Shown here: piece by piece, positions 6,907-29,520 of the stretch | How positions within the stretch are numbered: position 1 is the first letter of the stretch | Layout: each line of letters opens with the position of its first letter | DNA from: Symbiodinium sp. CCMP2592 | Taxonomy: Eukaryota; Sar; Dinophyceae; Suessiales; Symbiodiniaceae | Direction: 5' to 3' | Length of the DNA: 64,000 bases | Assembly (NCBI GenBank): GCA_905221615.1 | Contig: CAJNDT010002791.1 | Span: 248,001 to 312,000 of the forward strand | Notes under the pieces: generated by a model | What the model was told of the DNA's origin: nothing | What the model saw: only the letters and a program-made list of their open reading frames with translations | The model's database searches: none | Translations under genes and position numbers: made by a program

Positions 6907-6925
6907 TCTTACGGGCTAGTCTTCC

Positions 6926-7103
6926 TTATTCTCTGTTGCGAAACACATCATGTGCAATTATTATAATTGCGAATACTTCCACAAAGATCATCTCAAATAT
7001 AATCGAGATATCTTTCTTCAAAGAAATATAATATATAAAAATCTCGCACAGGCAGGCCTTCATTTTTCTTCCAAAGGGGAATGCCACGATACCCTGAGCT
7101 CAC
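6926..7103 (-). repeat. YR-1 terminal repeat Y2
   Basis: 178 bp, nearly identical to 7373-7550 (an early C/T difference is visible). It forms the outer 3' end of YR-1 in minus sense. Confidence 0.93.
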
Positions 7104-7148
7104 AACGGCTCAGGGGTAGGCTCAAGAATAATTCGTAGAAAAACCTCA

Positions 7149-7165
7149 GGGCGGGCTTGGGCGGG
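7149..7165 (+). promoter_or_regulatory. G-quadruplex-type motif at YR-1 repeat junction
   Basis: GGGCGGGCTTGGGCGGG: four G3 runs with loops of 1, 3 and 1, in the 62-bp spacer between X2 and Y2. An equivalent motif sits at the corresponding repeat junction of YR-2. On the sense (minus) strand it is C-rich. Confidence 0.7.
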
Positions 7166-7372
7166 AACAAAAACTACAGCAAACTTATGTTGCTGTCCCA
7201 CCCTCCCACCACTTGAGGCGAGCGAGGGACATAGATTCATCACATGTTCAACAGCCAACCGTTGCAACAGTGAAATTGAAAGTCTTGTGGAAAAAAACAT
7301 GATGTTAATTTTTCAAACATGAAAAATTTTCGCAAAGTAGAATAAAGCGATCATCCCTCCGGGAGGATGTAC
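7166..7372 (-). repeat. YR-1 repeat X2
   Basis: 207 bp matching 21632-21838 along its whole length. Its minus strand also holds a G-rich tract (complement of 7196-7210). It abuts Y1 directly. Confidence 0.93.
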
Positions 7373-7550
7373 TTATTCTCTGTTGCGAAACACATCATGT
7401 GCAATTATTATAATTGCGAATATTTCCACAAAGATCATCTCAAATATAATCGAGATATCTTTCTTCAAAGAAATATAATATATAAAAATCTCGCACAGGC
7501 AGGCCTTCATTTTTCTTCCAAAGGGGAATGCCACGATACCCTGAGCTCAC
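7373..7550 (-). repeat. YR-1 repeat Y1
   Basis: 178 bp matching 6926-7103. It overlaps the last codon and stop of the RT-RNase H ORF (7547). Confidence 0.93.
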
Positions 7551-9901
7551 CCCCTTCTTGAAAGGAGAGTGGCCAACGAAGGACGTGACCTGTACCTGCA
7601 CATGTGCTCGACTGCACCAAAGGTCAGCCGCGAAGGACCATCGGCAATGTTCGAGGAAGTGGGTACGCGGCCGTACCACACATGCACTCGAGACTGCATC
7701 TCGAGCTCAAGAATCTTCTGCACCCACAAATCCGATGACTCAGATGAGTCAGCAAAGCAACGGATGCAAGAGTGCCGCGCGCCCTCGTTATCAAGATAAC
7801 ACACCAGCTGTGATCCCTCAAACAAGTTACCCCAGAGCTCATACGCGATGAGCAAAGGAGCAAGCTCGAGCTCAAAGATCGGATTCTTCGAAGCAGCGAG
7901 AAGATCATGCATAAGGGATGACGGCACTTCCTCTCCAAAGTATCCTGCACAATATCCGTTCGGGGAGATAAGAACCCCCCCTATACCTCCCCACTGTCGC
8001 TCTGGCTCACAAGCTCCGTCAGTGAAAAGGATCCAAGTGGACCTGATGCGCGGCTGAACAATCAAAGGAGCTGACGAAGATACACGGTCAAGAAGAACCT
8101 GAAGCGCAGCTTTATGCCTCAGGCCCAACTCGAAAGTGACACTGGATTTGCTTGCACGCGCCAAAGTGCGCATAGCCTGATTGCTGACACGGCCGAAGCT
8201 GTAACCTTCAAAGAAGACCATGCGCCCACGCAGGCGTTCGAAAGATCTAGGCTCAATGCTCCCGGCATCCATTACGCCATTCAAGGATTCCACAAGTTCA
8301 TCTTTCCGCTTTTCTGTGTGACCAATGAGCACCCGGCGCTCTGCTGAGTGGGACAAATCTACTTGCAGACCAAGCGTACCGAAAACTGCAGCATGCTCCA
8401 CAGCCTTGCGACCTGACCTGTCAAAAGAGATGCCCAAAAGGTCAAACAAGCTTTCGATGGCCCAAGCAGTGTTATCCTTCAGGAGAGACCTACAAACATT
8501 CGTGAAGTCATCAAAATATGCAGTCCACAGCACTCGGGCCAGGACAATACCGATTTTCCAAACGGCATACGAAACCCTGAGGAAAGCACTAACGGAAGCA
8601 ACAGAGCCGAAGGGGAGGGCGTTCAAGCCCAGAATCTCCGGCGAATCTTGCCCAGGCCGATTGACGGCAATGCGAACCAGATCACGGTCATCTGGATGAA
8701 TGCCATACTGTTTGTAGGCCGACTTGAGATCATAATTTCTTCCAACCCAGTGATTCAGATGGCCGGCAGGGGCCCATTCTAAAGCACAGGAAAGAACTGC
8801 GGCAAGCTTGCCTATCGTGTGCAATTCGAACCTCTCCCTCAAGCCCACGGTAAGATTCAAGCAAGAGATGGTGCAGTCGTCTATCAACCTTACTTTGCCT
8901 CCCTGGCGAATGCCAAAGCGCATGGTGATGCTACGGCCTGAGAATTCTGTGGCGACCCAAACCCAACAGGCGTCAATCTCCTTTTGAGTTTCGGTCCAAA
9001 CTGTCTGCTCAAGCTCCTCGTCCTGTCGTCTAGCAAGCTTGGAAAAGACAGTTTTATTTAAACCCGGGGCCAACAACCTAAGAGAGGTGGAAGACATCTT
9101 TGGAGCCCGGACCTTGGGAGCCGTATTACCTGTCACAGGCATCCACCCTGAAATCCGAAAACCCGAAGCAATGTCCCGGAACAAGTGTTCATCACTGCAG
9201 CCCGCGGCTGTCATCATCTCTTTAAATAACAAGAGCCGCTTGCCACGTAGCACCTCGGACAAGTAATCGGGCATGTCGGAATGAAGTTTATCCTCAGCTG
9301 GTTGAAGCTCCTGGGCACGTGCACTCCACTTCTTGACAAAGGAAATCCTAAAGCGAGCCAGCTCCGATGCATCGTCCACAAAGTTGGATCGTACGGCCTT
9401 ACTGACTTCCTCCTCCAGGTGAAAATCAAGACTGCGAGGGTGACCCACTTCTACGGCCCTTCTTATGAATTCATCCGGCTCGCAAGGGATGCCTATGCTG
9501 CAAAGCTCAACTGATGGCAACACACCGCTGTGCGATCTCGGATCATTCACTTCAAGAAAGATGCAATGCTCGCAATGTTCGACGGCCTGAGAAAATTCCC
9601 CCGACCTCAAAACCTGCCTACGGACCATGCGAGAACCTTTAGGCAGCTGTGCCAAATAGGCATCGGCAAGGTGAGGCTTCGACGAAGGGCAAAAGCATGA
9701 AAGAAAATGCGAAAACTCAGCCACGAGGGGACCGAACGCGTTGCCACGTGGCTGAATGCCTAATGCAATCCTGGTAGCTTTGTGACTGAGTGGGATTCCA
9801 GAAGCCGACTCTGGCAGGTGAAGCGGCAAACCACAATGCACCGCCACCAGAGACAGCAACCGATGGCACAGGGCGGTCGGCGGTCGGATGAGTGGACTCA
9901 T
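7547..9901 (-). CDS. YR-1 reverse transcriptase-RNase H
   Basis: A 784-codon open frame. After an N-terminal linker (about residues 1-250, homologous to the C-terminal 150 residues of the YR-2 2OG-MTase ORF), RT motifs follow in order: KVRLIDD (336-342), [10 protein letters not shown] (389-398), [12 protein letters not shown] (429-440) and the catalytic box YFDD (462-465). RNase H follows with its acidic residues D628 (LFTDGACE), E677/E679 (FELELAP) and D704 (YLDNEGA), then [17 protein letters not shown]. This RT-RNase H type, ending in ADGPSR, is characteristic of DIRS-order elements. All catalytic residues are present, so the enzyme looks potentially active. The first codons overlap the end of the upstream ORF (to 9717) in another frame, so expression needs a frameshift or one ORF is damaged. 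Confidence 0.9.
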
Positions 9902-11726
9902 CAGCCGTAGTAAAGCGCAGTTGGCGTCCCACTAGACGGGGTTTCCAAGGAAGGTGCTGATGCGAGCCATCGCACCTAGCCTCCAAGGGGGCGAACACAT
10001 CCTGAGAAGCCCATAATCGCAAGAGACGTGGCCGCTCACCACCATGACAGCACAAATGGAAACGTGTCAAAAAGCCCTTGGCAACTTGTTCAATACTACG
10101 AAAGAAAGAAGTTTGCCAAAAGAGCGAGCTGTCAGGGTTCTCAAGAGCCACAAGGAGTCCTAAGGAACAAGCAAATTGAACCAGGCGCCCGACTTCAAAG
10201 TACAGTTGGTTAGCCTCTTCCACTCGGCGGCGGTCAGACCCAGAGAGCCCGGGCAACATATCGGGGTAGTCTGAACTCCGAAGAGCAGAAGGCAACTGGA
10301 AACCTTGGCGAACCCACTTTTCAATGTGCTTGCCCCGATGAACACTTGCAGTTCCTGAAGGAAGCGAAATGAAAATCAAAGCAATCCGACTCCGTTCGGA
10401 CTCAACTAGCTCACAGAGGTAATCGATATTATCAGCGTCAGCGAGATCAAGGCGCATGATCTGTTTTCCAGGAGCCCTGGAAGAATTGTTATCAATCGAC
10501 AAGGCCTGAAAACCCAAATTCTCAGCAACCCGAGACAACACTGCGTGCCCAGAGCACAGTTCAAGAACAAGCGGTACCTCGGCCGTCAGGGGCCGCGTAG
10601 ATCCTGGAGCAGGAGGGCCCTGAGTGACCGTGCGAATGTCACGGAGCTTGACAGTGGCACCTGAATTGAGATTGCGGAAAACAAATCCCAGCTCAGACAG
10701 GAGAGATCGACTCTCGGTGGGAAGTCGCTCCGAGAACGACGGCATGTATGCGATAAGGACTATCCTATTTCCTTGCCAAGGCATGACTGCATGGTGCACC
10801 GACGGATCAAGCTTGACTGGGCCTGATGCAACATCCATCAAGCGACCCCTGAGACTAACCCCATTATGGTCGTAAGTGGCATCTCCAGATTCATCGCGAG
10901 TCCATACCTGGCCGCCAACGAAATCGGTCAACGGAATGATCAAGTTGCGCGAACCCTTTTCATTGGACTTGTCAAGATGAAAACCCGACTGGACATTAAA
11001 AAGAAGCTGCAAGGCTCCAAACTCGAGCGTCGGATCAACTGCACGAACAAGAGATGTCAAGTAGCGGCAGACCATCGGCATGCTGGAACAGCTGTTGAAC
11101 ACACAGGCCTCCCCTGCGCGAACATAAAAGCCGAAACCAAGCTTTCCACCCTCTGAGGTCTGAGCTTGAGAAGTCCTCAAAGACTTATCCTTAGGTACCA
11201 AGTCCAACAAGCGAAGACAGCTGTCAGCATCGAAGCGGGTTATGCGTAGGAGCTCTCGAGCCAGAGCCTCGGATGAGGCAGGTCGGTTAGGTGTCTCCTC
11301 CGCCTTGGTCGACGAAGCAACTGTCTTCGTAGTCACAGCTCCTGAAGGATCTAAACCCAAAGGGGTCTCGGGGCCCTCCGAATCGGCATTCGCGAGGGGG
11401 TGCCTAGGAGAAAACCCTAAACCCGATGTTGCAGGCACTGCCATCTCAATGGCACGGCTTGCCTCAGCACTAACCCCAGATGTGCCAGTGCACACGGGAT
11501 TCCCATGACATATTGAATCGGATCGTCGTTTAAGTTGCAATCTAGCCCGAAGGAATTCGGCATCGGCACAGCTGCCGACTGCATTCACATGCACGCTCAA
11601 GGGAACACCACTCAAGCTCGAAGTCCGCTTAACGGACTCTCGACAGTGCGGAGCATCGCACACTTCCCCGGCAGCTGTTCTGTCAGCAGAAGACGCGACT
11701 GGCTTGGAGTGACACTCAGCCTGCAA
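9717..11726 (-). CDS. YR-1 2OG-Fe(II) oxygenase fused to C5-methyltransferase-like domain
   Basis: 669 codons from a non-ATG first codon, because the frame is continuous with gag apart from one UGA (11736-11738). Residues about 215-330 carry a 2OG oxygenase pattern: H250-x-D252 (GFHLDKSN), [15 protein letters not shown], the distal H311/H312, and R321 ten residues on (GNRIVLIAY). Residues about 385-600 resemble a C5-cytosine methyltransferase: motif [12 protein letters not shown], then IDNN, a motif IV-like ISLPSGTAS (451-461) and a motif VI-like [11 protein letters not shown] (527-537). Position 457, where the catalytic Cys of P-C would lie, is Ser (TCA). Such a fusion would combine a base methylator and an oxidative enzyme, but the methyltransferase part may be inactive. 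Functions are inferred from motifs only. DIRS elements often carry a DAM-type methylase; this is a different kind. Confidence 0.7.
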
Positions 11727-11729
11727 AGG

Positions 11730-11741
11730 AGCTAGTCACTC
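11730..11741 (-). promoter_or_regulatory. probable gag stop-codon readthrough site, UGA-CUA-G
   Basis: The gag frame ends GAG-TGA-CTA-GCT (stop at 11736-11738), and the same frame then stays open for 665 or more codons as the 2OG-methyltransferase ORF with no ATG nearby. UGA followed by CUAG is a well-known leaky-stop context. YR-2 has the same arrangement with UGA-CGG, the other member of that context class. Confidence 0.7.
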
Positions 11742-12290
11742 CTTCTTTGCTGACTTGCACGTAAGGACGGAATGCCCCGGCTTGTGACACGCCGCGCAAA
11801 CATGCAGCCCTTTCTCACACTTCATCCAACCTGACTTCGGACCCTTCTCAGTCTTATTGCTGCAACCATCCTCCAGATTAAAACCCCAGCATGCATTACC
11901 AAACTTGGTCCGGGTCTCGTACTGCGCAAGACTCGCCGGCTTGTTCTTTGGACCACCACGAGCCTTCGCCTTAGCCTTCGCCTTCTCAGTGGCAACTCTC
12001 GGGACCTTGGGTGGAGGACCATCCGGATGTCCCGGCTTCTCAGAATCCTTAGACGGCACGCCCGGGACCCTCTGCACCTGAGTTTTCTGCATAGGGAGCA
12101 AAAACTGACCGATGCGCTGATCATACATCAAACGGCTCCTGACTGCATCCAAGGGAAGTTTCCCCGAAGCGTCTTGTTTGAAAGATGCAAGGCCCTCCTG
12201 CGACATCAAAAGAAACATCTCCTTGTCTGCCCGCACACATTGCGAGAGAGTCACTGCTGCAAAGTTCGGTGGCGGAACTATCGAAAGACA
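11736..12290 (-). CDS. YR-1 gag, C-terminal part
   Basis: Continues the gag gene that starts at 19578 and is interrupted by YR-2. Crossing the insertion (18873 to 12290) the frame is intact: KWVQKLLD joins [10 protein letters not shown] and aligns without gaps to the YR-2 gag (QQWSDRLLR...DDPPPQY). The C-terminus has a Lys/Ala/Pro-rich basic stretch and a Cys/His array C-W-G-F-N-L...C...C-x3-GLH-x-C-x2-C-x4-H-x5-C shared with the YR-2 gag, probably a nucleic-acid-binding zinc knuckle. It packages element RNA by analogy with gag proteins. Confidence 0.8.
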
Positions 12291-12537
12291 TTATAGCTAA
12301 AGCTACTTTTCGCAGGAATATAATATTGAAAAGAGTCATTCTCAAATCAATCAATCAAACATATATTGCACGAGAATATAAATGTGCAGACAAATGCAGC
12401 ATTGTAGAACGCACATGCAATCGGACTCACTCTTTTTTCTTGAAAGGCGGCACAGCCGATTCGGGAAAGATCCGACACTCGAGAGACAGCCGATCGAGCA
12501 TCATTCACGAGGATTGAGCTCGTTCAACAAACTCCCG
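12291..12537 (-). repeat. YR-2 terminal repeat A2
   Basis: 247 bp, apparently identical to 12803-13049. It forms the outer 3' end of YR-2 in minus sense. Confidence 0.95.
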
Positions 12538-12552
12538 GGTGGGTTGGGTGGG
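12537..12552 (+). promoter_or_regulatory. G-quadruplex-type motif at YR-2 repeat junction
   Basis: GGGTGGGTTGGGTGGG: four G3 runs with loops of 1, 2 and 1, in the short spacer between A2 and B2. It matches in position and form the motif at 7149-7165 in YR-1. Confidence 0.75.
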
Positions 12553-12556
12553 ACAA

Positions 12557-12802
12557 AAATTTCGAATCTCGCCCGATGGCGAACTCGATCCACAAATGAC
12601 TGCCGGACGTGAGGTCATCAACAGGATCAACATCAAGGTTCGCATCAGGACGAGAGTTCGCGGCAAAACAAAAGGTTAAAAGTCAGTTGTTTGCCCCCCC
12701 AGGTTCAAAGAAGGTTGTGCGAAAAGCGAGTTTCAAAAGCAACGTCGCATTTGAAACATAGCTTGAGCTATAAAGCCGAATGAAACAAGTTTCAAAATAG
12801 GC
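12557..12802 (-). repeat. YR-2 repeat B2
   Basis: 246 bp matching 18627-18872 with one visible difference (GTGCG here, GCGCG in B1, near 12718/18788). Confidence 0.95.
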
Positions 12803-13049
12803 TTATAGCTAAAGCTACTTTTCGCAGGAATATAATATTGAAAAGAGTCATTCTCAAATCAATCAATCAAACATATATTGCACGAGAATATAAATGTGCA
12901 GACAAATGCAGCATTGTAGAACGCACATGCAATCGGACTCACTCTTTTTTCTTGAAAGGCGGCACAGCCGATTCGGGAAAGATCCGACACTCGAGAGACA
13001 GCCGATCGAGCATCATTCACGAGGATTGAGCTCGTTCAACAAACTCCCG
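12803..13049 (-). repeat. YR-2 repeat A1
   Basis: 247 bp, apparently identical to 12291-12537. It overlaps the last codons of the RT-RNase H ORF. Confidence 0.95.
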
Positions 13050-14792
13050 TCTCACCAAACGAACTCAAGAGCTCGCCGGATATGCAGCACTTCGGATGAT
13101 CCCTCGAGCATGTGCCCCAAACTGGGAAAAGGTCGGACCCCCTAGACGGAGGGTCTGCAGGATTGCTTTGGCTGGGAACGCGGGCATACCAGGCGATCAT
13201 AGGTTTGGCATCCGCTTCCTCAAGCTTCAAAAGGATGAGCCGCCAGAGGCGATCGTGGGACGATCCATTGACGCACGCGGCGTGCACACCGGCGTGGTCG
13301 ATGAAGAAAATGCCTTTGGCGAAATCAAGATACTCTCGCCACAACAGTCTTGCCGTGGTCACTGCGTACAATTCAACAGGCCCTATCAAGTGTTTCTTCC
13401 CAGAAGCACTCCAAGCCTTAACGAGCGAATCGGGCAGTCGGCAGCCAAAGTATCGAGTGGCCCACTTGCCGGAGCTCTCAACATACAGCACCCCACCGAT
13501 GGAGCACAGCATGCTATCACCCTCCGGTTCGCAAGCTCCGTCTGTAAACACAATAACATTCGCCCCAGGTGGGCGAGCGGAGATCGCCCGGGGCGGCCCA
13601 TGAAGCAACCGCTCACGAAGATTCTGGAAGGCATGCCGTTCCGAGTCCCCGAGCTTGAGGATTCCCCCGGAAGTCCCGAGGGAGCGAAGCTCAGACAAAG
13701 CCAGTCGCCCCATGCGTCCCATGAGTTGCCCTTCAAGAAACTGAATCCTCCCAAAGAGAGAAGCGATTTCCGCGGACCGGATGGCGCCCCTATCAAGAAC
13801 CTCATCGACAGAGGCCGCCACCTCGCAGCACTTTACCTCCCGGTTGCGCACACGCACCTCGGACAGGTCTTCACAAGAGAGGTCTACCGTGACTCCCAAG
13901 ACGTCGGCACTGCTCTTGAACGGCTCTTCCTTATCGGTAGAGCACTCGAAACCGAGTAGGTCAAGTATGCAATGAGCAGTGGAGTCGGCGCTCCCCGACA
14001 GGGCGGATAACTCCAACACCGGAAAATCATCAAAATAGTTACAGTTCAAGATCCAGGCTTCCTGAAGAATCCGTTGGATCAGGCGTGCAACCCTGTTAAA
14101 GCAAGTCACGCTCCCCGAGGCCCCGAAGGGCAGGACTCTTGATGCGTAGCCCCGCACTTGGCCGCTGTCCGGATGTTTCAGTGCGACCACACAAAACCTG
14201 CGATGCTCTGGGTGGAGCGGTAGCTGTTTATACGCCGCCTTCAAGTCGATAGTTTTCAACAAGGGGCGGGCACGGTCGGTCTTGATCCTCCAGAAGTCGT
14301 GAAGGGGTCCCGAGATCACCCGACCCGACCACAGGAGAGGACAAGGTGGACGGTTCCTTTTTGCACAAGTACCCGCATGATGTAAGTGGCACACCAAACA
14401 AGCTCGTCGAAGGCACGCAAGGTGAGCTTGTCACAAGCGGCAAATGCGCTGTTTGCACCGTTGGCAGCTAAGTCGTCGATGGGGCGCAACTTGTCGCGTT
14501 GGCGTACACCAAACCTTTTGGCCGGGAGCCAATCCCCGAACAAGAGCTCAAGTTCCTCCCAAGAGCGAGGTTGCTCGAGCCATCCCTTCTCGCGGTATTC
14601 AGCCTCAGTGATTTCAAAAAGCTCGCGAGAGTTTGCATCCAGCGGAGCATCGTTGACCTGTTCCCAGATCAGGGGCTTGGTTGACCGAGACTGAGCCAGT
14701 AACTCCTCAGGCGTGAGGGTCGCTGGTCGAGGCTCAAGGGGGAAAATTCCGCTCGGGAACTCCTCGCCCACGATCTTAAAGCCACTGGTCAT
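13036..14792 (-). pseudogene. YR-2 reverse transcriptase-RNase H, frameshifted
   Basis: The N-terminal part reads from 14792 (MTSGFKIVG) through KLRPIDDLAANGANSAF. Around 14330-14380 the frame changes to the 453-codon frame that carries IDLKAAYKQLPLHPE, VLPFGASGSVTCF and NYFDDFPVL (catalytic YFDD intact). RNase H follows with [10 protein letters not shown] and PVELYAV, but the third acidic site reads FIDHAGVHAA where YR-1 has LDNEGARH. The tail WYARVPSQSNPADPPSR matches YR-1. The start overlaps the preceding stop as ATGA. In YR-1 the equivalent stretch ([11 protein letters not shown]) is continuous, so a 1-nt loss is likely. As it stands at least two frame changes prevent a full-length product. 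Confidence 0.8.
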
Positions 14793-16858
14793 ATCCTGTG
14801 CAAGCGGGTGTCAGGCCATTGCAGGGATTTGGCAATGCGATCAAGGAGGAGCAGGCGCTTTCCCTTGACCACTTCGGCCACAGAAGGGGGCAAGGATTTG
14901 TGCAGTTCAGCCTCGGCCGGTTCCAGTTCGGCGGCCCAAGCTTTCCACTGGGTTATCGTATCCAATCTCCGTCTGAGGACCTTAACAGGACCCTCGATGA
15001 GCAGATGGCCCAGGACGACCATAGCTTGATCGGGCAGTGCTCTGCACATGTCACAAGGATGGCCAACATTCAAAGCTCGTTCCGCAAACTGAAGAGGGCT
15101 TCGGTAGACTCCACACGTGATGGAAACCAATTTTCCGATTCCCAAGTCAGACAGCTGAGAGGAAACCTTCCGGTCGGGTCTAGGGCGCTTAGGGAAAACT
15201 ACACCCGCCTCAAAATTAACCCTAAGAACCCGAGAGCCGGCAGGCACGGGGCCTAATGCCTCCACGAGGCAATTTTTAGGGTCAAGAGAGGGCAGGGCGC
15301 CCGAAGGCGCGGGCACGGTAACTTGATAATGGTATTCCTCGACCAGCACGACGGCCCTTGAAACACGCGGCTGGAGCTGATTGGCGGCACGGGCTGAAGC
15401 ATTGGTAACAAGGGCTGGTGTCGGTACAGTGTCAAGTTGACCGGCGGCCAGGGCGAGGGCAGATGCAAATTTAGTACAAAAGTGGTTCGTATGCACGAAC
15501 GAGGGCGCAGCGACAGGAGCCGCGCGAACCGGGCCCCCGGAGGGGATCTTTGAGGCATCGGCCGGAGTTTCAAAAACCCGAAGCTCGGGAAGTGAAGACA
15601 TCAAGAGAAAGTTCTCATGTGGCCCGGGACCGCAGTCGGCGGCAGTAAAGGAGACCTGAATGCAAGACCGCTGAAGATCCAGCAAGCCAGACTGTTTCCA
15701 AAGCGCCGAGGAGGCGGGACACACAACTGAGAAGTGCACAGAAGGAAATTCGGAGCGGAGCCAACAGCAGAAGTCAGCGACGAGTGGTGCCACTGCATCG
15801 GCAAACGGGCCGCGAGCAGGTGGGGAAAGATGCACCACAAACACATCCCCGGCTTGTACAAGCCTCTTCACGTACTGCCACGACAGGGCGCGAGAGAGGT
15901 CCAGCGGGGTCACGTGTATAGGCCCCTTTGCACGGCGCCCCAAGGGAAGGGCTTGGAACCCGAAGCTCCGCAAAGCAGAAGTCATATTGCCAGTTTCGGC
16001 AAACAGCTCTAGGCACAACCAAGGGCAAGCTTTAATCGAAGACAAACCCCTAGACTGTGCACTAGGGCCGGGGGGACTAAACCCTAGAGCGGGCCTAAAA
16101 TCAGGAAAACCAACTGTGAAAGCGGGGAGAGGAACCTCGGCGGGCTCATGCTCCGGCAGTGCGAACCCCAGACTGCGTAGCAACTGGGAATCTTTTGCTG
16201 CAAGGCGGTCCGAGCCTTTCAAGCAGTACGCGATCAGGACAACGCGCCGACCGCGAGAAGGGTTTACGGAATGCCTAACAGAGCGGGCATCGAATGCAAT
16301 GGGTCCCTGATCCAAGGACACGGCGCGAGCCCTAAAAGAAATTTCACCCCTCTGAACCAAGGAACCCTTGGGATCCTCTAGAAGCAGTTCGCCTCCCCCA
16401 AAACGAGTCATCGGGATGACCAAGTTCTGGATGCAGACGTTCTGAGCATCTTTGTGGACACCAACCTGAGAATCCTCGGTGACGACCAAACTGGAGAAAA
16501 GCATCGTTGGCTCGACGGCACGAATCAACGAAGTCAGAACTTTCACCTCCTCGGGGTGCCGGTGGACCGAAGTCCGCAGCCCTACGACACCCTTAGAATA
16601 CATCCCGCTGTAAAAAGCCTTCCCAACCTGGTCACGATGAGATTCGGTCTTGGTCCCAACTGACTCGTGCGGGAGGCTGTCGAAAAAGCTCAGGCACTGT
16701 TGAAGAATTGTGGAAAATTTATCGTGCTGAGGAGAACTTGAAGCTGGTTGCCCGCATGCATCCGCCTCGAAAGATGATCCGCCGAGGAAGTGTTCCGGTC
16801 CCAAGCTCTGACTGGCTTGGGCATCCGAATCATTTCCTGACTGGCCAACACCGGCCAC
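14789..16858 (-). CDS. YR-2 2OG-Fe(II) oxygenase fused to degenerate methyltransferase-like domain
   Basis: 689 codons in frame with gag, separated from it by TGA-CGG. Residues about 105-212 form the 2OG-like domain: H135-x-D137 (GVHKDAQN), NLVIPMTRFGGGELLLED, distal H196, then GRRVVLIAY with R204/R205. Residues about 278-420 match the YR-1 methyltransferase layout: CLELFAETGNMTSALRSFGFQAL, then VVHLSPPARGPF (Ala348 where a P-P-C catalytic Cys would be) and CPASSALW in place of ENP-x-S-x-L-W. About residues 500-689 are the linker that YR-1 has at the start of its RT ORF (A-x-E-L-x-P-A-E-x-x-L-H, GKRLLL). The 2OG half keeps its metal ligands; the methyltransferase half has lost its key residues. 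Confidence 0.7.
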   Translation of the reverse strand: MAGVGQSGNDSDAQASQSLGPEHFLGGSSFEADACGQPASSSPQHDKFSTILQQCLSFFDSLPHESVGTKTESHRDQVGKAFYSGMYSKGVVGLRTSVHRHPEEVKVLTSLIRAVEPTMLFSSLVVTEDSQVGVHKDAQNVCIQNLVIPMTRFGGGELLLEDPKGSLVQRGEISFRARAVSLDQGPIAFDARSVRHSVNPSRGRRVVLIAYCLKGSDRLAAKDSQLLRSLGFALPEHEPAEVPLPAFTVGFPDFRPALGFSPPGPSAQSRGLSSIKACPWLCLELFAETGNMTSALRSFGFQALPLGRRAKGPIHVTPLDLSRALSWQYVKRLVQAGDVFVVHLSPPARGPFADAVAPLVADFCCWLRSEFPSVHFSVVCPASSALWKQSGLLDLQRSCIQVSFTAADCGPGPHENFLLMSSLPELRVFETPADASKIPSGGPVRAAPVAAPSFVHTNHFCTKFASALALAAGQLDTVPTPALVTNASARAANQLQPRVSRAVVLVEEYHYQVTVPAPSGALPSLDPKNCLVEALGPVPAGSRVLRVNFEAGVVFPKRPRPDRKVSSQLSDLGIGKLVSITCGVYRSPLQFAERALNVGHPCDMCRALPDQAMVVLGHLLIEGPVKVLRRRLDTITQWKAWAAELEPAEAELHKSLPPSVAEVVKGKRLLLLDRIAKSLQWPDTRLHRI

Positions 16859-16903
16859 ACGACCGATTGACTCTGACGAATCATTCGTCGTTGTGCTCGT
16901 CTG

Positions 16904-16915
16904 GCACCGTCACTC
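16904..16915 (-). promoter_or_regulatory. probable gag stop-codon readthrough site, UGA-CGG
   Basis: The YR-2 gag frame ends CAA-GAG-TGA-CGG-TGC (stop at 16910-16912) and the same frame continues open into the 2OG-methyltransferase ORF, again after a Glu codon GAG as in YR-1. UGA-CGG is an established readthrough context. Confidence 0.7.
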
Positions 16916-18184
16916 TTGCTTCCTCTTCGGGCACGCGGAGGCCCCGTGCCCGTGCTGCCCGCACTTCGGGATGGCACAAGCATGCAAGCCTCTCACACAG
17001 GCATTGTTGGTCACAGCATTGGTGCAGTTGCCAAGCTGAAACCCATAACAGTAAGGATTTCCTTTCTTGGTACTCGACGTGCAGCCCCAAGCGATAAGCT
17101 GTGCAGGCATGCGCCCCTTTCCCTTGCCCTCTTTGCCTTTCCCAGCGCCCTTTCTAGGACCCTTGGGAGTGTAGGGAGCGGGGCGCTCCTTGCCGGAATC
17201 ATCGGAACTCCGCCCGCTGACCGACTGAGGCATGGGCTTTAGCAAGCAGACCACATCATACGACATCATCACAGCAGGGAGGTGCTTGTCAAGCGGGCGC
17301 GCCCCACCACATGCTGACTGAACGCCGTCTCGCGTCAGATCCCTCAGCTCACTGAAGAGCTTCTTGTCTGCAGCCACAAGCTGGCTCCAAGACGGACGGC
17401 TGTACTGGGGCGGTGGATCGTCCATCCTGGCTCGCAACAGGCGGTCCGACCACTGTTGCATCAGGGTGTACTCTACAAGATTTGCCTGATCCAGGGCAAG
17501 TGATCGCCTCTGCAAAGCCTGAAGCACATGGACCTCCGAAGCAGTGGAGGCCTTGTCCTCAGCATCTTTATTCTCAACTTTAAGCTTCCCGGAATGCTCA
17601 TCGATCGTAAAGCGAGTATCCTTCTTGCGTTCCGAAGCAACTTCTTGCTCCCGGGAGGTGCAAGACTCCCAAGAGATGTACCTCAGCTCATTTTGCTCAT
17701 AAGCTGAAACGGCCTTGTCGACGAGTGCTTCGCTGGGCTCCGAAGGGCCCTTGATAAGTACACCCACGAGCTTCGCGACTTGCTTCTCATGCCTCTCGGC
17801 ACGCTCGGGCTGGGTGAGCCTCCTCGCCGTGGGCTCTTCACTCTTCTCGATCTTTTGGCGCATCTCTGAAGTAACGATAGCATAAGCCTCGTGGTACAAT
17901 GCCCTGAAGCTAGCTTGGACAGCCAATTCAGCATCACGGCCCAACATCGACTTCAGAGCAGCCATAAGTGGGGCCTCATCCGCTTGACCCGGAGTAAAGC
18001 TGGATATGAAGGCAAGTTGCCGAAGTGAACCCACCGCCGCTTTGACCTTCGCAGCATCTTCCTTCGGCAGTCCACATGCGTCTACCCTGGCATCGAAAAC
18101 ACTACGGCTATCTGAGTAAGAAGCGGCCATGTTGCTGCCTCCGCCAGTTGGCGCCTTGAGACACATTTCCGAAGGAGCATTCAC
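16910..18184 (-). CDS. YR-2 gag
   Basis: 424 codons. The N-terminal two thirds is helical and charged. PPPQYSRPSWSQLVAADKKLF aligns to the YR-1 gag around its interruption point. A Pro/Gly/Lys-rich segment follows (KGPRKGAGKGKEGKGKG), then the Cys/His array CYGFQLGNC...C-x3-GLHACAIPKCGQHGHGASAC near residues 375-418, the same spacing pattern as the YR-1 gag. It is the nucleocapsid-type structural protein. The first in-frame ATG used by the open frame is at 18184; a second ATG at about residue 19 is also possible. Confidence 0.8.
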   Translation of the reverse strand: MNAPSEMCLKAPTGGGSNMAASYSDSRSVFDARVDACGLPKEDAAKVKAAVGSLRQLAFISSFTPGQADEAPLMAALKSMLGRDAELAVQASFRALYHEAYAIVTSEMRQKIEKSEEPTARRLTQPERAERHEKQVAKLVGVLIKGPSEPSEALVDKAVSAYEQNELRYISWESCTSREQEVASERKKDTRFTIDEHSGKLKVENKDAEDKASTASEVHVLQALQRRSLALDQANLVEYTLMQQWSDRLLRARMDDPPPQYSRPSWSQLVAADKKLFSELRDLTRDGVQSACGGARPLDKHLPAVMMSYDVVCLLKPMPQSVSGRSSDDSGKERPAPYTPKGPRKGAGKGKEGKGKGRMPAQLIAWGCTSSTKKGNPYCYGFQLGNCTNAVTNNACVRGLHACAIPKCGQHGHGASACPKRKQE

Positions 18185-18562
18185 AAGAGCACTTGCCCCC
18201 GCATCTGATCCCTCAAAGCACTCTACCGAGTCTCCAAAGGAGGCAGAAGCCCAGGCCTAAGCATGTGCAATGACCTCAGCATGGACTGTTCAACTTGAAT
18301 CACTCGCCCCTCCTGTAAAGAGACTGGAACCGTCATGAAAGCGAGCAACCAACTCTTTAAGCACACAAAATCGCCCCTCGTTGTGTCGCCCTTGCGACAG
18401 CAAAAGACTATCCCGCATCAGTGCCCGCCTCGACCGATTTCACGTCGGGACAGCACTGCTTGCATACTGGAAACAAAACTTTCGGCAAGTTCTCACAGCG
18501 AACATAAGAGGCTGAGATCTTTCTCCCGCACTTGAAATGAGACCCTTCCGAGGGCCTCACAA

Positions 18563-18605
18563 AAATTTCGAATCTCGCCCGATGGCGAACTCGATCCACA
18601 AATGA
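18563..18605 (-). repeat. partial third copy of B (post-acceptor leader)
   Basis: A 43-bp copy of the part of B that lies 3' of the trans-splice acceptor. It directly follows the DinoSL in minus sense and shows where the processed transcript begins. Confidence 0.9.
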
Positions 18606-18627
18606 CTTGAGCCAAAATGGCTACGGA
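18606..18627 (-). other. captured dinoflagellate spliced leader (DinoSL)
   Basis: The minus strand reads T + CCGTAGCCATTTTGGCTCAA + G, an exact match to the 22-nt DinoSL consensus (first base D = T). It is followed not by an intron donor but by TCATTTGTGG. Those bases follow an AG (18670-18671) in the intact B1 repeat, so the junction is that of a trans-spliced mRNA copied back into DNA. Confidence 0.95.
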
Positions 18628-18872
18628 AATTTCGAATCTCGCCCGATGGCGAACTCGATCCACAAATGACTGCCGGACGTGAGGTCATCAACAGGATCAA
18701 CATCAAGGTTCGCATCAGGACGAGAGTTCGCGGCAAAACAAAAGGTTAAAAGTCAGTTGTTTGCCCCCCCAGGTTCAAAGAAGGTTGCGCGAAAAGCGAG
18801 TTTCAAAAGCAACGTCGCATTTGAAACATAGCTTGAGCTATAAAGCCGAATGAAACAAGTTTCAAAATAGGC
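18627..18872 (-). repeat. YR-2 terminal repeat B1
   Basis: 246 bp matching 12557-12802. It is the outer 5' end of YR-2 in minus sense and includes the trans-splice acceptor. Confidence 0.95.
18670..18671 (-). promoter_or_regulatory. trans-splice acceptor AG of YR-2
   Basis: The minus strand reads CCGGCAG|TCATTTGTGG. The base after this AG (18669) is the one joined to DinoSL at 18605/18606, so this is the acceptor used. The same site exists in B2 (about 12600). Confidence 0.88.
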
Positions 18873-19578
18873 ATCAAGCAGCTTCTGCACCCACTTTTGA
18901 TGAACGTTGTACGAAATCATGCGACACTGATCGTACGCCAATCCTCTACGCTGCCAGGCCCACTGACACCTCAAAGCATCAGAAGCATCGCACTCGATCG
19001 TGGTGCTGGGTCCTCCGAGCTTCACCGTATTCTGTTCAACTTGCAGCACGCTAGGTTTCTCCTTGAACCCAGCAATGACTTCAAGCTCTCTCTTAGGACA
19101 CTTAGATGGAGCCAACCAATAAATGACAGAGTGCTCGAGCTGGTGGTTGCAAGCATCGACCAACTGATAAGCTGGATCCAGCTCTCCTTCCAACTCCAAA
19201 CCTGCCAGACGCGCCTGCTGAGACTCTTTACGGGCTCTCTTCTCAGGCAGCGGGAGCTTCCTCATCGGTGCTCCATCCGTTGACTCATGACTCACCATGT
19301 CCCTGTAAGCCTGAATGACAAGTGTGGATGCTTCGAAATGCAGCTGGCGAATGCATGAAAGCTCACCCACTGTAGGATCCCCGTCACCCGAAGACCTTCT
19401 TTGTCAAATCAGCAAAGGCGAGTTCCGTCGGCGGGGTCTGGGGCGTGCCCAGAGCAAAGGCCAAAGACCTGAACGTCTTCACTCCCTGCCCTGCCATCCC
19501 CGCCACTAGGGACCCATCCCCCCTGATCTCCAGACATCTCCGCTCGAAAGCGGCTTCACTCTCTATGATGGTTGACAT
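18873..19578 (-). CDS. YR-1 gag, N-terminal part (one frameshift)
   Basis: Starts at [15 protein letters not shown] (19578). The frame closes at KKVFG-stop near 19386, and a +1 frame continues [12 protein letters not shown] to the YR-2 insertion at 18872/18873. Removing one G from the GGG run rejoins the two. The segment matches the N-terminal helices of the YR-2 gag (SLAFALG / [17 protein letters not shown] / QRRSLALDQ). It continues at 12290 after YR-2. Confidence 0.75.
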
Positions 19579-19791
19579 GCCGATCTACCTCACTGAGGCT
19601 TCTTTCGAGCCCCTCGTCTCGCACACAACAGAACATGGCTACAAGCTTCAGCAAAAAGACATGTACATGACTGCCACATGAACGAACATGCGCACTCCGC
19701 AAAAGAACTTCTTCTGACCTATCATGCCTCCGCGATCTTTGCGCACATCCTGCATCGGGTGTACACCGGACCTGGACGATCAGTAAGCTTC

Positions 19792-21462
19792 CTATGCAGC
19801 GGCCCAACGGCCACATGCGAAGCTTCTCGTATGCCCGTTAAAGTCACCAGTATGATATCCCAGCAAAAGCAATTCCTCAGGGCTAGCCCCGAACTTCGTC
19901 GCAAAGCTGATGCACGTGCACTTGCAAGAATGACTCGAGACACGACGCTCCGGGCGAACCTCCTTGCTTCCAAACAAGAGCAGTCGGGCCCAGTCCCCAG
20001 CCTCATCCGAATCCAAGCTTCTAATCGTTGGCATCCCCTGTCGGTCGGGAGCCGGCATAACAGGGCTGCGGGGGGGTTCCTGCAAACCCAAGCGGCCGCG
20101 TACCTTGACGTACTGCTCGACCCAGTTGCCCTCTACCACCCCAACAGCCGGTGCAACCAGAGGCAAAAGTTGCCCTTTCATAATCTTTGCACCCATCGTC
20201 TTATGTACCCCGACCGATGCTTCGATGTACGCAGCCATGCCATCATCGGCCCTATCGATTATGAGGCGGTCAGCATGCTCCAAATCTTCCCACCGGGCGC
20301 GGGAGTACACACAAAATAACAGGGATCCAGCCATGAGTTGATTCCACGGCTCAGGGTCCTCAAACAATATTCGATGCAACTTGCTGAGCTCCTCCACGGT
20401 AAAAGGAGAAGCCTGCACTCGAGGCTTGAAGTCACGGGCCCTTGCAGAGCCGTGGCAGCGTTTGCTCTCCCCCAAGGAAGCCAGCTCGGGGATCCCCAAA
20501 ACAAATCGGCAAAAAGTAATAGCCTCAAGCAGCGACTTGCGAGTAGACGATGGCTTGCCCTCCTCTCGCAACATGCACATGTAAGCATAAAACAACTCCT
20601 CGCTGCCAGGAAAATCGACCCTCCGGTTGCGAAGGAATAAAGCATACCCCAAAACTGAGCGACACCTCTTCCTCTTCCTCAGAGTGGCCGGTGCCTTGCC
20701 TCCCAAGAGGTCTTCCACCATACCTCTGCGGACCTGTGGTTCGAGTACCAAAATCTGGCCGATCACAGTAATCCTTTCAGGCCAGGTAACTAGCAAAGAT
20801 TCCCAGAGAGAAAGAGCCTCATCCCTCTCCTTATCTCTTTTCTGCTTCCAGCTGAGAACTTCACGATCACGCACAGCATTCAAGAAGGAGGAGCCGCCCA
20901 CCGCTCCAACTGACGGCCCAGACTGTCTGGGCACTTTCCTGGGCTGAAGCTCGGCCTCACCAAGCACAGGTGCCTCGGGCCTCTTGAAGTCTGCCCCATA
21001 TAAGTTTGCAGCGTCGTCCCTGCCACCAAAAATCTGAGACCAAAAACCACTTTCCCAGAAAAATTTAATGCCAGGGGCCTGAAGGCTTTGGTGTGCCGCG
21101 GCAACGGCCGCTGACACATTGATGGATCCAGCCGATAATGCAGCTCCACTTACTGTAGCGAAAGAAGGTCCGCAAGAATGCGAAGGCCCCGAGCGGTCAG
21201 CAGCCGCAGCAGAAAAAGATCGAATGCTGCCTGCCCTCTCAGATACATTCGCATTCGAATACCATTGAGCCTCTTCCAGTTCACTAGGGTCAAAACTCGC
21301 ACTGCGAAAAGGAGACTGCTGTCGACCATCTTCCGAACCACGCAGAAAATCATGACTTGCTAAGCTGTCAAGGTGAGCCTCGAAAGGACTAAGCAGCTCC
21401 TCTTGCTCTCCACCAACTGGCCTGTCACTGCCCCCATCTCCCTCTGACAGTTGGTCACTCAT
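19792..21462 (-). CDS. YR-1 tyrosine recombinase, catalytic Tyr apparently Phe
   Basis: 556 codons. A Ser/Ala-rich N-terminus leads to a core-binding-like helical region (about 200-340) and a tyrosine-recombinase catalytic domain. Arg I is in SRARWEDL (R390), Lys in HKTMGAK-x-x-KG (421-430), box II is SSHSCKCT (H511-x-x-K514, Lys instead of the usual Arg), and the second His is in LLGYHT (H537). The expected nucleophile position, in the T/S-Y-x-R block about 11 residues on, reads RSFACGRW: Phe548 (TTC; Tyr would be TAC), and a TAG follows eight codons later. This suggests an inactivated enzyme. The gene is first in the element, before gag. If active it would recombine the circular cDNA into target sites. 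Confidence 0.78.
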   Translation of the reverse strand: MSDQLSEGDGGSDRPVGGEQEELLSPFEAHLDSLASHDFLRGSEDGRQQSPFRSASFDPSELEEAQWYSNANVSERAGSIRSFSAAAADRSGPSHSCGPSFATVSGAALSAGSINVSAAVAAAHQSLQAPGIKFFWESGFWSQIFGGRDDAANLYGADFKRPEAPVLGEAELQPRKVPRQSGPSVGAVGGSSFLNAVRDREVLSWKQKRDKERDEALSLWESLLVTWPERITVIGQILVLEPQVRRGMVEDLLGGKAPATLRKRKRCRSVLGYALFLRNRRVDFPGSEELFYAYMCMLREEGKPSSTRKSLLEAITFCRFVLGIPELASLGESKRCHGSARARDFKPRVQASPFTVEELSKLHRILFEDPEPWNQLMAGSLLFCVYSRARWEDLEHADRLIIDRADDGMAAYIEASVGVHKTMGAKIMKGQLLPLVAPAVGVVEGNWVEQYVKVRGRLGLQEPPRSPVMPAPDRQGMPTIRSLDSDEAGDWARLLLFGSKEVRPERRVSSHSCKCTCISFATKFGASPEELLLLGYHTGDFNGHTRSFACGRWAAA

Positions 21463-21631
21463 TTCAAGGCTGGGCGCAAAAGCAGCTGCAGCGAATGTAC
21501 CAACACGTACGAAGAAGTTGGAGGCGCTCGACAGACGAGAGGCAGTCCCAGATCAAGCGCGCAGCATCTCTATGCCCGACACTCTTAGCCAGAAGACTGA
21601 AGGCAGAACCTTCCATGGCGGGACCCGCCCC

Positions 21632-21838
21632 AACAAAAACTACAGCAAACTTATGTTGCTGTCCCACCCTCCCACCACTTGAGGCGAGCGAGGGACATAG
21701 ATTCATCACATGTTCAACAGCCAACCGTTGCAACAGTGAAATTGAAAGTCTTGTGGAAAAAAACATGATGTTAATTTTTCAAACATGAAAAATTTTCGCA
21801 AAGTAGAATAAAGCGATCATCCCTCCGGGAGGATGTAC
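21632..21838 (-). repeat. YR-1 terminal repeat X1
   Basis: 207 bp matching 7166-7372. It is the outer 5' end of YR-1 in minus sense. The LINE sequence resumes at 21839. Confidence 0.93.
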
Positions 21839-22330
21839 AAGTTCACTAAAGGAGGACGAAAACCTAGCTCGCGCAGGCGCTGTTGCAGCGTTGCGGAGAA
21901 GCGAGAAGTTCCTTTGACCGTGTAGGCCACCAGAACAACTCGGTTAAAGGTAGCCCACGGTAGAGTGGCGTGCCACAGTGCGTCCGCCCTGAAGGAGATG
22001 CTGAGGCCGCGGAGGTCAAAGCAGCTTCCCCGAGTCATCCCCTGCTGGTTCGGGATCTCCTGGTAGTCGCATCCGTCAGGATCTTCGATCCATATGCCTC
22101 CCTGATCGCATATAGAGATGGGGATGAGCAGTGAGCCGTAGGCAGCATTGCGAACATCCTTATGTGGAGGAGAGAGTACATCGACCAGGACTGCAAGCGA
22201 GGTCCAGTGGTGCTCTGGATGGCAGGAGTAAACGAAGGCATTGAGCAACTGAGTGACGTTGGGATGGGAGATGGTCTCCTTAAGCAAGCCTGGGAGAACA
22301 CGATTGTACGCTCCAACTCGAAAACGCTGA
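21839..22330 (-). CDS. 2OG-Fe(II) oxygenase-like C-terminal domain of the LINE
   Basis: The frame reads FRVGAYNRVLPGLLKETI and then the domain: SPPHKDVRN (H-x-D), GSLLIPISICDQGGIWIEDP, the distal His in LWHATLPW, and FNRVVLVAYTVKG with the conserved Arg, followed by LRELGFRPP. The pattern and spacing match the 2OG domains of YR-1 and YR-2 (H-x-D-x-x-N, IP, GG-x-x-W, H-x-x-x-P-W, R-V-V-L-x-A-Y). Upstream the frame breaks near 22335 from the 222-codon ORF. The natural stop is in host DNA on the other side of YR-1. The substrate is unknown. Confidence 0.68.
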
Positions 22331-22339
22331 CCGCTCCTT

Positions 22340-27595: not shown

Positions 27596-27630
<35 letters not shown>

Positions 27631-28418
27631 GCTACTACTACTGCTGCTGCTACTACTACTATTACTAACACTGCAAATACTACTCATACTACTCATACTA
27701 CTCATACTACGTACACTGCTATACTACTCATCTACTCATAATACTACCAATACTACTAATACTAGAAATACTAGTAATATTACTAATACTCTAATACTAG
27801 TAATACTACTAATACCACTAATACTACTAATACTACTAATACTACTAATACTACTAATACTACTAATACTACTAATACTACTAATACTACTAATACTACT
27901 AACACTACAAATGCTAATGCTAACTATAACTAATACCAATCCCAATACGGATACTAATACTAATATTATCACGACTACAAACACAAACACTGATTCTAAT
28001 ATTAGTACTCATACTCATACGCATACTAAAGCTACTAATACTAGTAAAAGAACTAATACGAATACAATACGAATACACATACAGATATCGATACCAAATA
28101 CTTTGTACTACTAATACTACTCATACTACTAGTACTACTAATACTAGTAATACTAGTCATACTAGTAATACTAGTCTTACTACCAAGACTATTAATACTA
28201 CTACTGATACTACTAATACTACTAATGCTACTAATACTACTAATACTACTGACACTACTAATACTACTTTATTCTACTAACACACTTCTTATACTACTGA
28301 TTCTTCTGATACTGCTAATACAACTAATGCTACTAACACTACTAATACTACTAATACTACGAATACTACTAATACTACCAATACTACTAATACTACTAAT
28401 ACTACTAATAGCTATGCG
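27593..28418. repeat. ACT / AATACT simple-repeat array 1
   Basis: Begins as pure (CTA)n, then degenerates into (AATACT)n with local variants (TCATACTAC, AATACTAGT, AATACCAAT). About 370 bp are repeated almost exactly in array 2. The ORFs here (poly-Leu, poly-Thr/Asn) are translations of the repeat. Confidence 0.95.
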
Positions 28419-28590
28419 CGCCTCCAGGCGCCTGGTGTTAACCTCTGTTTTTTTCTGCGTTTTTGCGCCTTTTGCTAAGGTGCCGGGGGGGCTGGGGTGG
28501 GGGAGGGGGGGTGAATAACGACATGGTTGACCGCAAGCAGTAACGCAGTAGCGTCGGTAGCAGTAGCAGTAGCAGGATGCTTGTGACAAC
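28419..28590. other. spacer with no gene
   Basis: A GC-rich spacer with a GGGGGAGGGGGGG tract (about 28496-28512) and a short CAGTAG repeat. Confidence 0.6.
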
Positions 28591-28689
28591 GTGTCTTGCT
28601 CCACATCCTTGTGCAGCATGTGGTACAAAGAGCAAAAAATGCTGTAAATACCGGTGTTTTGGGCATGATCGCCAAAGGCTGTGACATGA

Positions 28690-28850
28690 ACATTAACCTG
28701 CCCATCTTCATCACCATCTTCATAGCCATCATTTTCGCCATCTTCAACATCATCGCTAACTTGATCATCTTCATCATCATCCTCATAATCATCATCCTTA
28801 TCATCATCCTCATAATTCTCAAAATCATCAAAATAAGCCCACGCAATTAG
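28690..28850. repeat. ATC-rich simple repeat
   Basis: A degenerate (ATC)n/(CATCAT)n tract, for example CATCATCATCCTCATAATCATC. It creates Ile- and Met-rich ORFs that are not genes. Confidence 0.85.
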
Positions 28851-28952
28851 TTGGATCGAAGTTGGCTTGACTACAATTTCTAAAAACTACTAAAAATCCT
28901 ACATTTTTTGACAATCGGACACAAAACTACCAGGGGCCAGGAGGCGCGGAAC

Positions 28953-29131
28953 CCTACTAATACTACTAATACTACAAATACTACTAATACTACTAATACT
29001 ACTAATACTACTGATACTACTAATACTACTAATACTACTAATACTACTAGTACTACTAATACTACGAAAACTACTACTGCCACAAGTACTACTAAATCTA
29101 TTGATAGCAAAAAGACTAAAAATGCTACAAA

Positions 29132-29181
<50 letters not shown>

Positions 29182-29184
29182 CTA

Positions 29185-29225
<41 letters not shown>

Positions 29226-29520
29226 ACAACGACTAACACTGCAAGTACCTCTCATACTACCCATACTACTCATACTACTCATACTACGTACACTGCTATA
29301 CTACTCATCTACTCATAATACTACTAATACTACTAATACTAGAAATACTAGTAATATTACTAATACTTTAATACTAGTAATACTACTAATACCACTAATA
29401 CTACTAATACTACTAATACTACTAATACTACTAATACTACTAATACTACTAACACTACAAATGCTAATGCTAACTATAACCAACACCAATACCAATACGG
29501 ATACTAATACTAATATTAAC
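28953..29520. repeat. ACT / AATACT array 2 with CTG tract
   Basis: Contains (AATACT)n, (ACT)n (29130-29180), (CTG)n (29186-29224), and then a copy of the array 1 core including the non-repetitive landmark ACTACGTACACTGCTATACTACTC. This is a segmental duplication, not independent slippage. Confidence 0.93.

Follow-up and report, generated by a model that had tools for sequence, protein, structure and literature searches.

Structure of YR-2 and of its host element YR-1

The window, which is the whole 64-kb stretch of DNA analysed here, contains on its minus strand a retroelement, YR-2, that has been inserted into an older split-direct-repeat element, YR-1 (Table 1). In the usual notation for such repeats, A1-body-B1-A2-B2, the left repeat is A1, and YR-2 has this order of direct repeats, as in DIRS-order (YR) split-direct-repeat retrotransposons. 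The aligned parts of A1 (18872-18627) and A2 (12802-12557) are identical at 245 of 246 nt, and B1 (13049-12803) and B2 (12537-12291) are the same across 247 nt, so the insertion of YR-2 looks recent.

Table 1. Features of YR-2 and YR-1, numbered in the window, and of the related element L027, numbered in its own stretch
Feature	Position	Strand	Remarks
YR-2 retroelement, whole	18872-12291	minus	6.58 kb; order A1-body-B1-A2-spacer-B2
A1, left terminal repeat	18627-18872	minus	X + AG (18872-18670), truncated R′ (18669-18627); 245/246 identical to A2
AG, trans-splice acceptor	18670-18671	minus	role as acceptor deduced from the SL join
Exact DinoSL	18606-18627	minus	21 nt = 18626-18606; T18627 possible degenerate first (22nd) base
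Second R copy	18559-18605	minus	47 nt, with TTTGT; joined to SL, continues into body
ORF1, gag-like	16910-18130	minus	zinc knuckle near C-terminus at E 1.6 only; start as in P0121
ORF2	14789-16909	minus	frame of ORF1 after one stop; N-terminal pol part at its end
Reverse transcriptase (RT) and RNase H-like part	13036-14810	minus	frames shifted relative to relatives
B1, internal repeat	12803-13049	minus	100% identity to B2
A2, internal repeat	12553-12802	minus	X-AG-R without SL
AG in A2	12601-12600	minus	counterpart of the A1 AG
C-rich spacer CCCACCCAACCCACC	12538-12552	minus	A2/B2 interval; similar spacers in other elements
B2, right terminal repeat	12291-12537	minus	exact right end from empty site
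YR-1, older split-direct-repeat element	6925-21838	minus	YR-2 inserted into it; repeats; gag frame open at the YR-2 site
YR-like ORF of YR-1	21552-19792	minus	homologues and weak Cre-like fold
L027 A1	1549-1741
L027 SL	1745
L027 B1	9844-10167
L027 A2	10167-10359
L027 B2	10389-10712

In A1, the AG at 18671-18670 is directly followed by the 43 nt of R′, which start with TCATTTGTGG and end with GAAATTT, then by an exact DinoSL spliced leader (SL), and then by the whole of R again, the junction reading SL-TCATTTGTGG. In A2, R (TCATTTGTGG...TTTTTGT) comes directly after the AG, with no SL between them; compared with A2, A1 has an extra SL and R inserted. As in a DinoSL relic, this SL is joined directly to transcript sequence that elsewhere follows an AG. 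It is not the 5′-most part of the insertion, however, as 201 nt of X, the AG and the 43 nt of R′ precede it there. The initial annotation had reported an exact DinoSL at 18606-18627 on the minus strand, and this is confirmed: it is the sole match at up to 3 mismatches within the 64 kb, and 0 of 100 shuffles contained one. The bases after the SL had also been said to recur after an AG in the left repeat. They do so at 18669-18627, but the repeat is A1 and not B1.

Three trivial origins were rejected. A chance match is contradicted by the shuffles and by an expectation of 0.0005 exact SLs in the whole genome. An SL RNA gene does not fit because the bases 3′ of the SL are TCATT and not GT; the contaminant contig L003, by comparison, has the SL followed by GTAC. 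A simple tandem duplication without RNA brings no exact SL.

The nearest homologues of the YR-2 proteins belong to Symbiodinium sp. CCMP2592 (82-97% identity across the aligned parts), and ORF1 is 96% identical to P0121 of this organism. The RT gave an RVT_1 match in Pfam (E 4e-6, 27 bits) under the cut-off of 29.6, while its homologue P0001, at 85% identity, carries PF00078; the RNase H was recognised by eye only. RT and RNase H are both parts of DIRS-order elements. The RT frame is broken, being split over shifted frames against its relatives, with one stop after ORF1. ORF2 displays 2-oxoglutarate oxygenase-like and DNA methyltransferase-like patterns, by eye only; it had no significant Pfam match, and a PDB sequence search with an ORF2 alignment gave no match. 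No tyrosine recombinase (YR) was found in YR-2, either by Pfam on its ORFs or by tblastn with P0123, P0124 and P0128. Thus, YR-2, which had been annotated as a split-direct-repeat YR element, qualifies by its repeats and RT, but it has no detectable YR gene and its RT frame is broken. It is a split-direct-repeat retroelement that would need a recombinase from another element.

YR-like homologues of the YR-1 ORF show the pattern HSCK...YHTG...TYGRD, although, as compared to the homologue P0123, the YR-1 ORF is missing the part that surrounds the catalytic tyrosine. Pfam gave no YR match for the YR-like proteins. A modelled homologue (a weak model, pLDDT 50) had Cre as its best fold match (E 1.2e-3, probability 0.99, TM <0.3). 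On the motif, the weak model and this best match, the YR-1-type genes are probably YRs, and we call them YR-like. At the empty site of YR-2, the joined flanks restore the YR-1 gag frame, which is open over 200 codons; with the frame open through the joined flanks, YR-2 has no target-site duplication, as is usual for DIRS-order elements. Just upstream of YR-1, at 22072-22332 (minus), there is a third stretch that matches the YR-2 polyprotein family, and two blocks of diverged tandem repeats occupy 60432-62748 and 27596-29518 of the window.

Leader-bearing elements elsewhere in the genome

A search of the 1.1-Gb (1.098-Gb) genome for the SL with at most one mismatch gave 318 forward and 318 reverse matches. 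The sample examined consists of the 100 listed SL places (99 stretches; L004-L033 and L041-L109), all selected by an exact SL, so that copies with a damaged or absent SL lie outside it. GT directly follows the SL at none of the 100 places. At five of them (L027, L028, L055, L063 and L105), the sequence after the SL is repeated upstream after an AG, over 16 to at least 60 nt. This upstream copy is preceded by GCAG in the window, L027, L028, L055 and L063 (5/5) and, in the sixth case, L105, by CAAG, which resembles the remnant of an older leader that has decayed. The recurrence behind GCAG, or CAAG, points to trans-splicing at that AG, as the initial annotation had proposed. YR-like frames were matched by tblastn in YR-1 and, downstream of the SL and together with gag-like frames, in these five loci and in L023 and L024; an RT-like frame was found in six of the seven loci, L063 being without one.

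The junctions differ among the elements. L027 is a complete second example, from a family other than that of YR-2; its A1 ends with 16 nt of R′ and GTT before the SL, and the junction reads SL-TTTTCCGGATC. The A1 of L063 ends with 17 nt of R and CT before the SL, and L105 retains about 85 nt of R before it; contig C708 ends short of the L105 A2. In L028, the 680 nt before the SL consist of A2, spacer and B2 plus 216 nt of right flank, and are identical to the right end of the same element. The flanks at the L028 empty site join into one open coding frame, and the copied right flank therefore belongs to the locus. Wherever an element was read completely, the spacer comes after A2; as the upstream repeat of L028 has the spacer, B2 and right flank following A2, it was copied from the 3′ copy. 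L055 reads X-AG-R-spacer-SL-R, with about 150 nt between the spacer and the SL. No A2 was found within 14 kb downstream in L055 or L063, and the B of L055 was likewise unconfirmed, which makes L055 the weaker case; possibly, an SL copy inserted into an older relative here, and no L028-like rebuild took place. L023, which belongs to the family of L027, has the SL at its very 5′ end with foreign sequence adjoining and no A1, and here the rebuild seems to have failed.

In 8/8 elements with A2 read (among them L027, L023, L028, L017, L109 and L098), A2 and B2 are separated by a C-rich motif made up of CCC blocks, and C-rich spacers lie at 12538-12552 and 7149-7165 of the window. The spacer is mostly preceded by the T-rich end of A. 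It is possibly a priming or processing site.

In a second group of elements, the leader lies inside the A repeat. L017, L090, L109 and L098 have about 180 nt of X in common, three with the same junction and one a relative, while their left flanks differ; the junction of L017 reads SL-TCCCCCATCAGG. A2 was sought for these four and for L025, L042 and L073. It was recovered for L017, L109 and L098, was not found within the fetched stretches of L090 and L025, and gave no match for L042 and L073. In all three pairs recovered, the SL is perfect in A1 and decayed at the same place in A2, where the segment reads CCGTGGCCATTCTGGATAAAG in L017 and L109 and CCGTTGCCATTCTGGATAAAG in L098. A1 and A2 differ at 4 sites in L017, all in the SL, at 5 in L109 (4 in the SL, 1 in X) and at 6 in L098 (4 in the SL, 2 in R). 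When pooled, 12 of the 15 differences fall in the SL segment, which covers 63 of 699 nt; the pooled binomial value of 1e-10 is too small, since L017 and L109 share their A2 form and the pairs are not fully independent, and the values per pair range from 7e-5 to 9e-4.

X thus has one differing site over the three pairs, as compared to four SL sites in each. An A1 copied wholly from A2 would match it in the SL as well, which argues that X came from A2 and the SL from another source. This source would most simply be a spliced mRNA. The AG within the leader (CCGTAG) is lost in both A2 forms, a loss that would confine splicing to the segment's end. By tblastn with the YR-1/YR-2-type proteins, the L017 and L025 stretches gave no match; the L017 RT was recognised by eye (YADD), with Pfam at E 0.03 only. 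What links this group to YR-2, and suggests kinship, is the A-B-A-B layout together with the spacer and the leader.

The core reading of the initial annotation, in which an SL-spliced mRNA is integrated and its upstream repeat rebuilt from the 3′ copy, is thus supported, at the level of sequence, beyond one copy. The rebuild is borne out by the spacer, B2 and flank of L028 and by X in the second group, but it was imprecise in YR-2, where R is duplicated. In the same way, the claim that the repeats restore the upstream side agrees with L028 and the second group, but does not always apply, as L023 has no A1.

Proposed replication through trans-spliced mRNA

Trans-splicing in the host puts foreign sequence at the 5′ end of an mRNA, and any mode of replication that depends on a match between the RNA ends should then break down; the SL-bearing copies reveal how an element copes with this. 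The best explanation, in which we place high confidence, is that DIRS-order elements of this dinoflagellate jump via SL-spliced mRNA and that the A2 part restores X. These split-direct-repeat elements would be transcribed from A1. The A repeat would be laid out like U3-R, with a splice acceptor setting the border of R, so that SL trans-splicing at the AG inside A would remove X and leave an mRNA of the order SL-R-body-B1-X-R-spacer-B2. Reverse transcription would run to the SL, and the cDNA end would then switch to, or join, the A2 part of the element RNA or cDNA, from which X would be copied back.

The outcome would depend on the partner. When A2 has no match to the SL, as in YR-2 and L027 and probably in L063 and L105, the transfer would be imprecise and yield X-R′-SL-R. 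When the partner is the RNA 3′ end, as in L028 and perhaps in L055, the spacer and the following sequence would be carried along. When A2 has an SL-like segment, as in L017, L109 and L098, the transfer would be seamless and bring a fresh SL into A1. Insertion leaves no target duplication, as would be expected if a YR acted on a putative circle with a B-A junction, and for YR-2 this YR would presumably be supplied in trans. For the second group, we lean only slightly towards the view that the elements took the host SL into their terminal repeat: the decayed A2 leader would be the landing site for a fresh reverse-transcribed leader, A1 would be rewritten in each cycle and the upstream side restored seamlessly, and YR-2 would represent the first, imprecise capture step.

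Some of the junctions would also arise without a template switch, if the cDNA of an SL-mRNA were closed end to end, from a variable 3′ end to the SL, and the circle then integrated or recombined at a resident B-A site or a remnant of one. The join in L028, which runs exactly from the flank copy to the SL with flank from the same locus, agrees with such closure, and the 2-3 extra bases at the join in L027 and L063 are like those of end joining. However, end joining does not predict the seamless second-group join, in register with the A2 segment in 3/3 cases, and closure requires a resident A2-B2 at every site; we regard it as a possible but not a probable route. L028 received its own right flank, meaning that cDNA returned to its own locus, and this gain would likewise be expected if an SL-tagged cDNA had recombined with a resident copy by gene conversion, the SL having been absent at the insertion of the element. 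Since the same arrangement occurs in three second-group elements at three sites, and no later event is needed to account for the window, gene conversion appears rather unlikely.

For the second group, the element itself might instead encode the leader and transcribe it from A1, with no trans-splicing involved, each A1 handing it on to the next A1. The SL is indeed exact in the A1 of L017, L090, L109 and L098, but this exactness proves little, given that the loci were selected by an exact SL. Moreover, the A2 of YR-2 and L027 lacks the SL, which these elements could gain only from spliced mRNA, and we therefore consider an encoded leader improbable. Finally, the sequence is known from the assembly alone, which would leave room for an artefact; given several families with different junctions, an AG every time and the low genome-wide expectation, an assembly artefact or chance match is hardly conceivable.

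Relation to known systems and further occurrences of the leader

In the U3-R arrangement of LTR retrotransposons, the RNA begins at R inside the left repeat, and the right copy restores the upstream part. The proposed replication through spliced mRNA resembles it, in that the RNA would begin at R within the left repeat and the right copy would supply the upstream part. It differs in that a splice acceptor would set R and a foreign leader precedes R, and in that the repeats are split into A and B and there is no target duplication.

Among retroelements of the same host genus, the SymbioDIRS elements, which are of DIRS type, are described in PMC5890265 as having A-coding-B-A-B repeats, an RT and a YR in a separate ORF, with members that carry a DNA methyltransferase in pol. 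They share the repeat layout and the RT with the elements reported here; however, here the SL is part of the element ends, and YR-2 is without a detectable YR. In the main text of PMC5890265, "spliced leader" occurs 0 times, and trans-splicing is mentioned on a single occasion, as a trait of the host. For DIRS1-like elements, the relevant portions of PMC3266345 describe internal repeats that match the ends and a model with a circular intermediate and no target duplication. The insertion of YR-2 without target duplication fits this circle model, whereas the DIRS1 ends are inverted with no leader described in those portions, and here direct repeats are combined with the SL.

DinoSL relics and mRNA recycling are well known: through reverse transcription, a spliced mRNA leaves its SL in the genomic DNA (work of Slamovits and Keeling 2008, cited in portions of PMC3229502, PMC6050394 and PMC7245778). 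The present elements likewise have the SL of a spliced mRNA returned to the genome by reverse transcription, but the relics, as described there, sit at the 5′ end of a retrogene, while here the element's own repeat precedes the SL. No paper on the SL in YR element ends was found in the open-licence literature searched, partly by title, and within that literature the combination of the SL with DIRS/YR element ends looks new. The SL junctions record, at the level of DNA, where the element RNA begins, and they allow the replication of YR retroelements, about which little is known, to be read. SL-primed Iso-Seq libraries have been described for two Symbiodinium species (PMC8045281). By comparing the A1 SL with the decayed A2 SL, the origin of each segment can be tested inside a single element.

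Other features accompany the listed SLs. Telomere-like CCCTAAA occurs within 60 bp upstream at 22 of the 100 places, downstream at 0/100 and at -480 to -420 at 3/100, and (AG)5 occurs upstream at 19/100, downstream at 2 and far upstream at 0. These counts suggest that retrocopies land at CCCTAAA or (AG)5 repeats, or that their 5′ ends get joined to such repeats.

A search of genome contigs matched two MAG contigs. In scans of viral contigs, the RT found no relative and R found nothing, and the SL found one virus-like contig, the AT-rich IMG/VR contig L001 (7157 bp, GC 0.22), which has two exact DinoSLs. The segments concerned lie on the minus strand at 2913-2746 and 2700-1936, and the second SL is followed by a 254-aa ORF that is visibly more GC-rich and whose Pfam matches all stay below threshold (the best being RcsC, E 0.001). 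The L001 segment looks like a spliced dinoflagellate mRNA that was copied into a viral genome.
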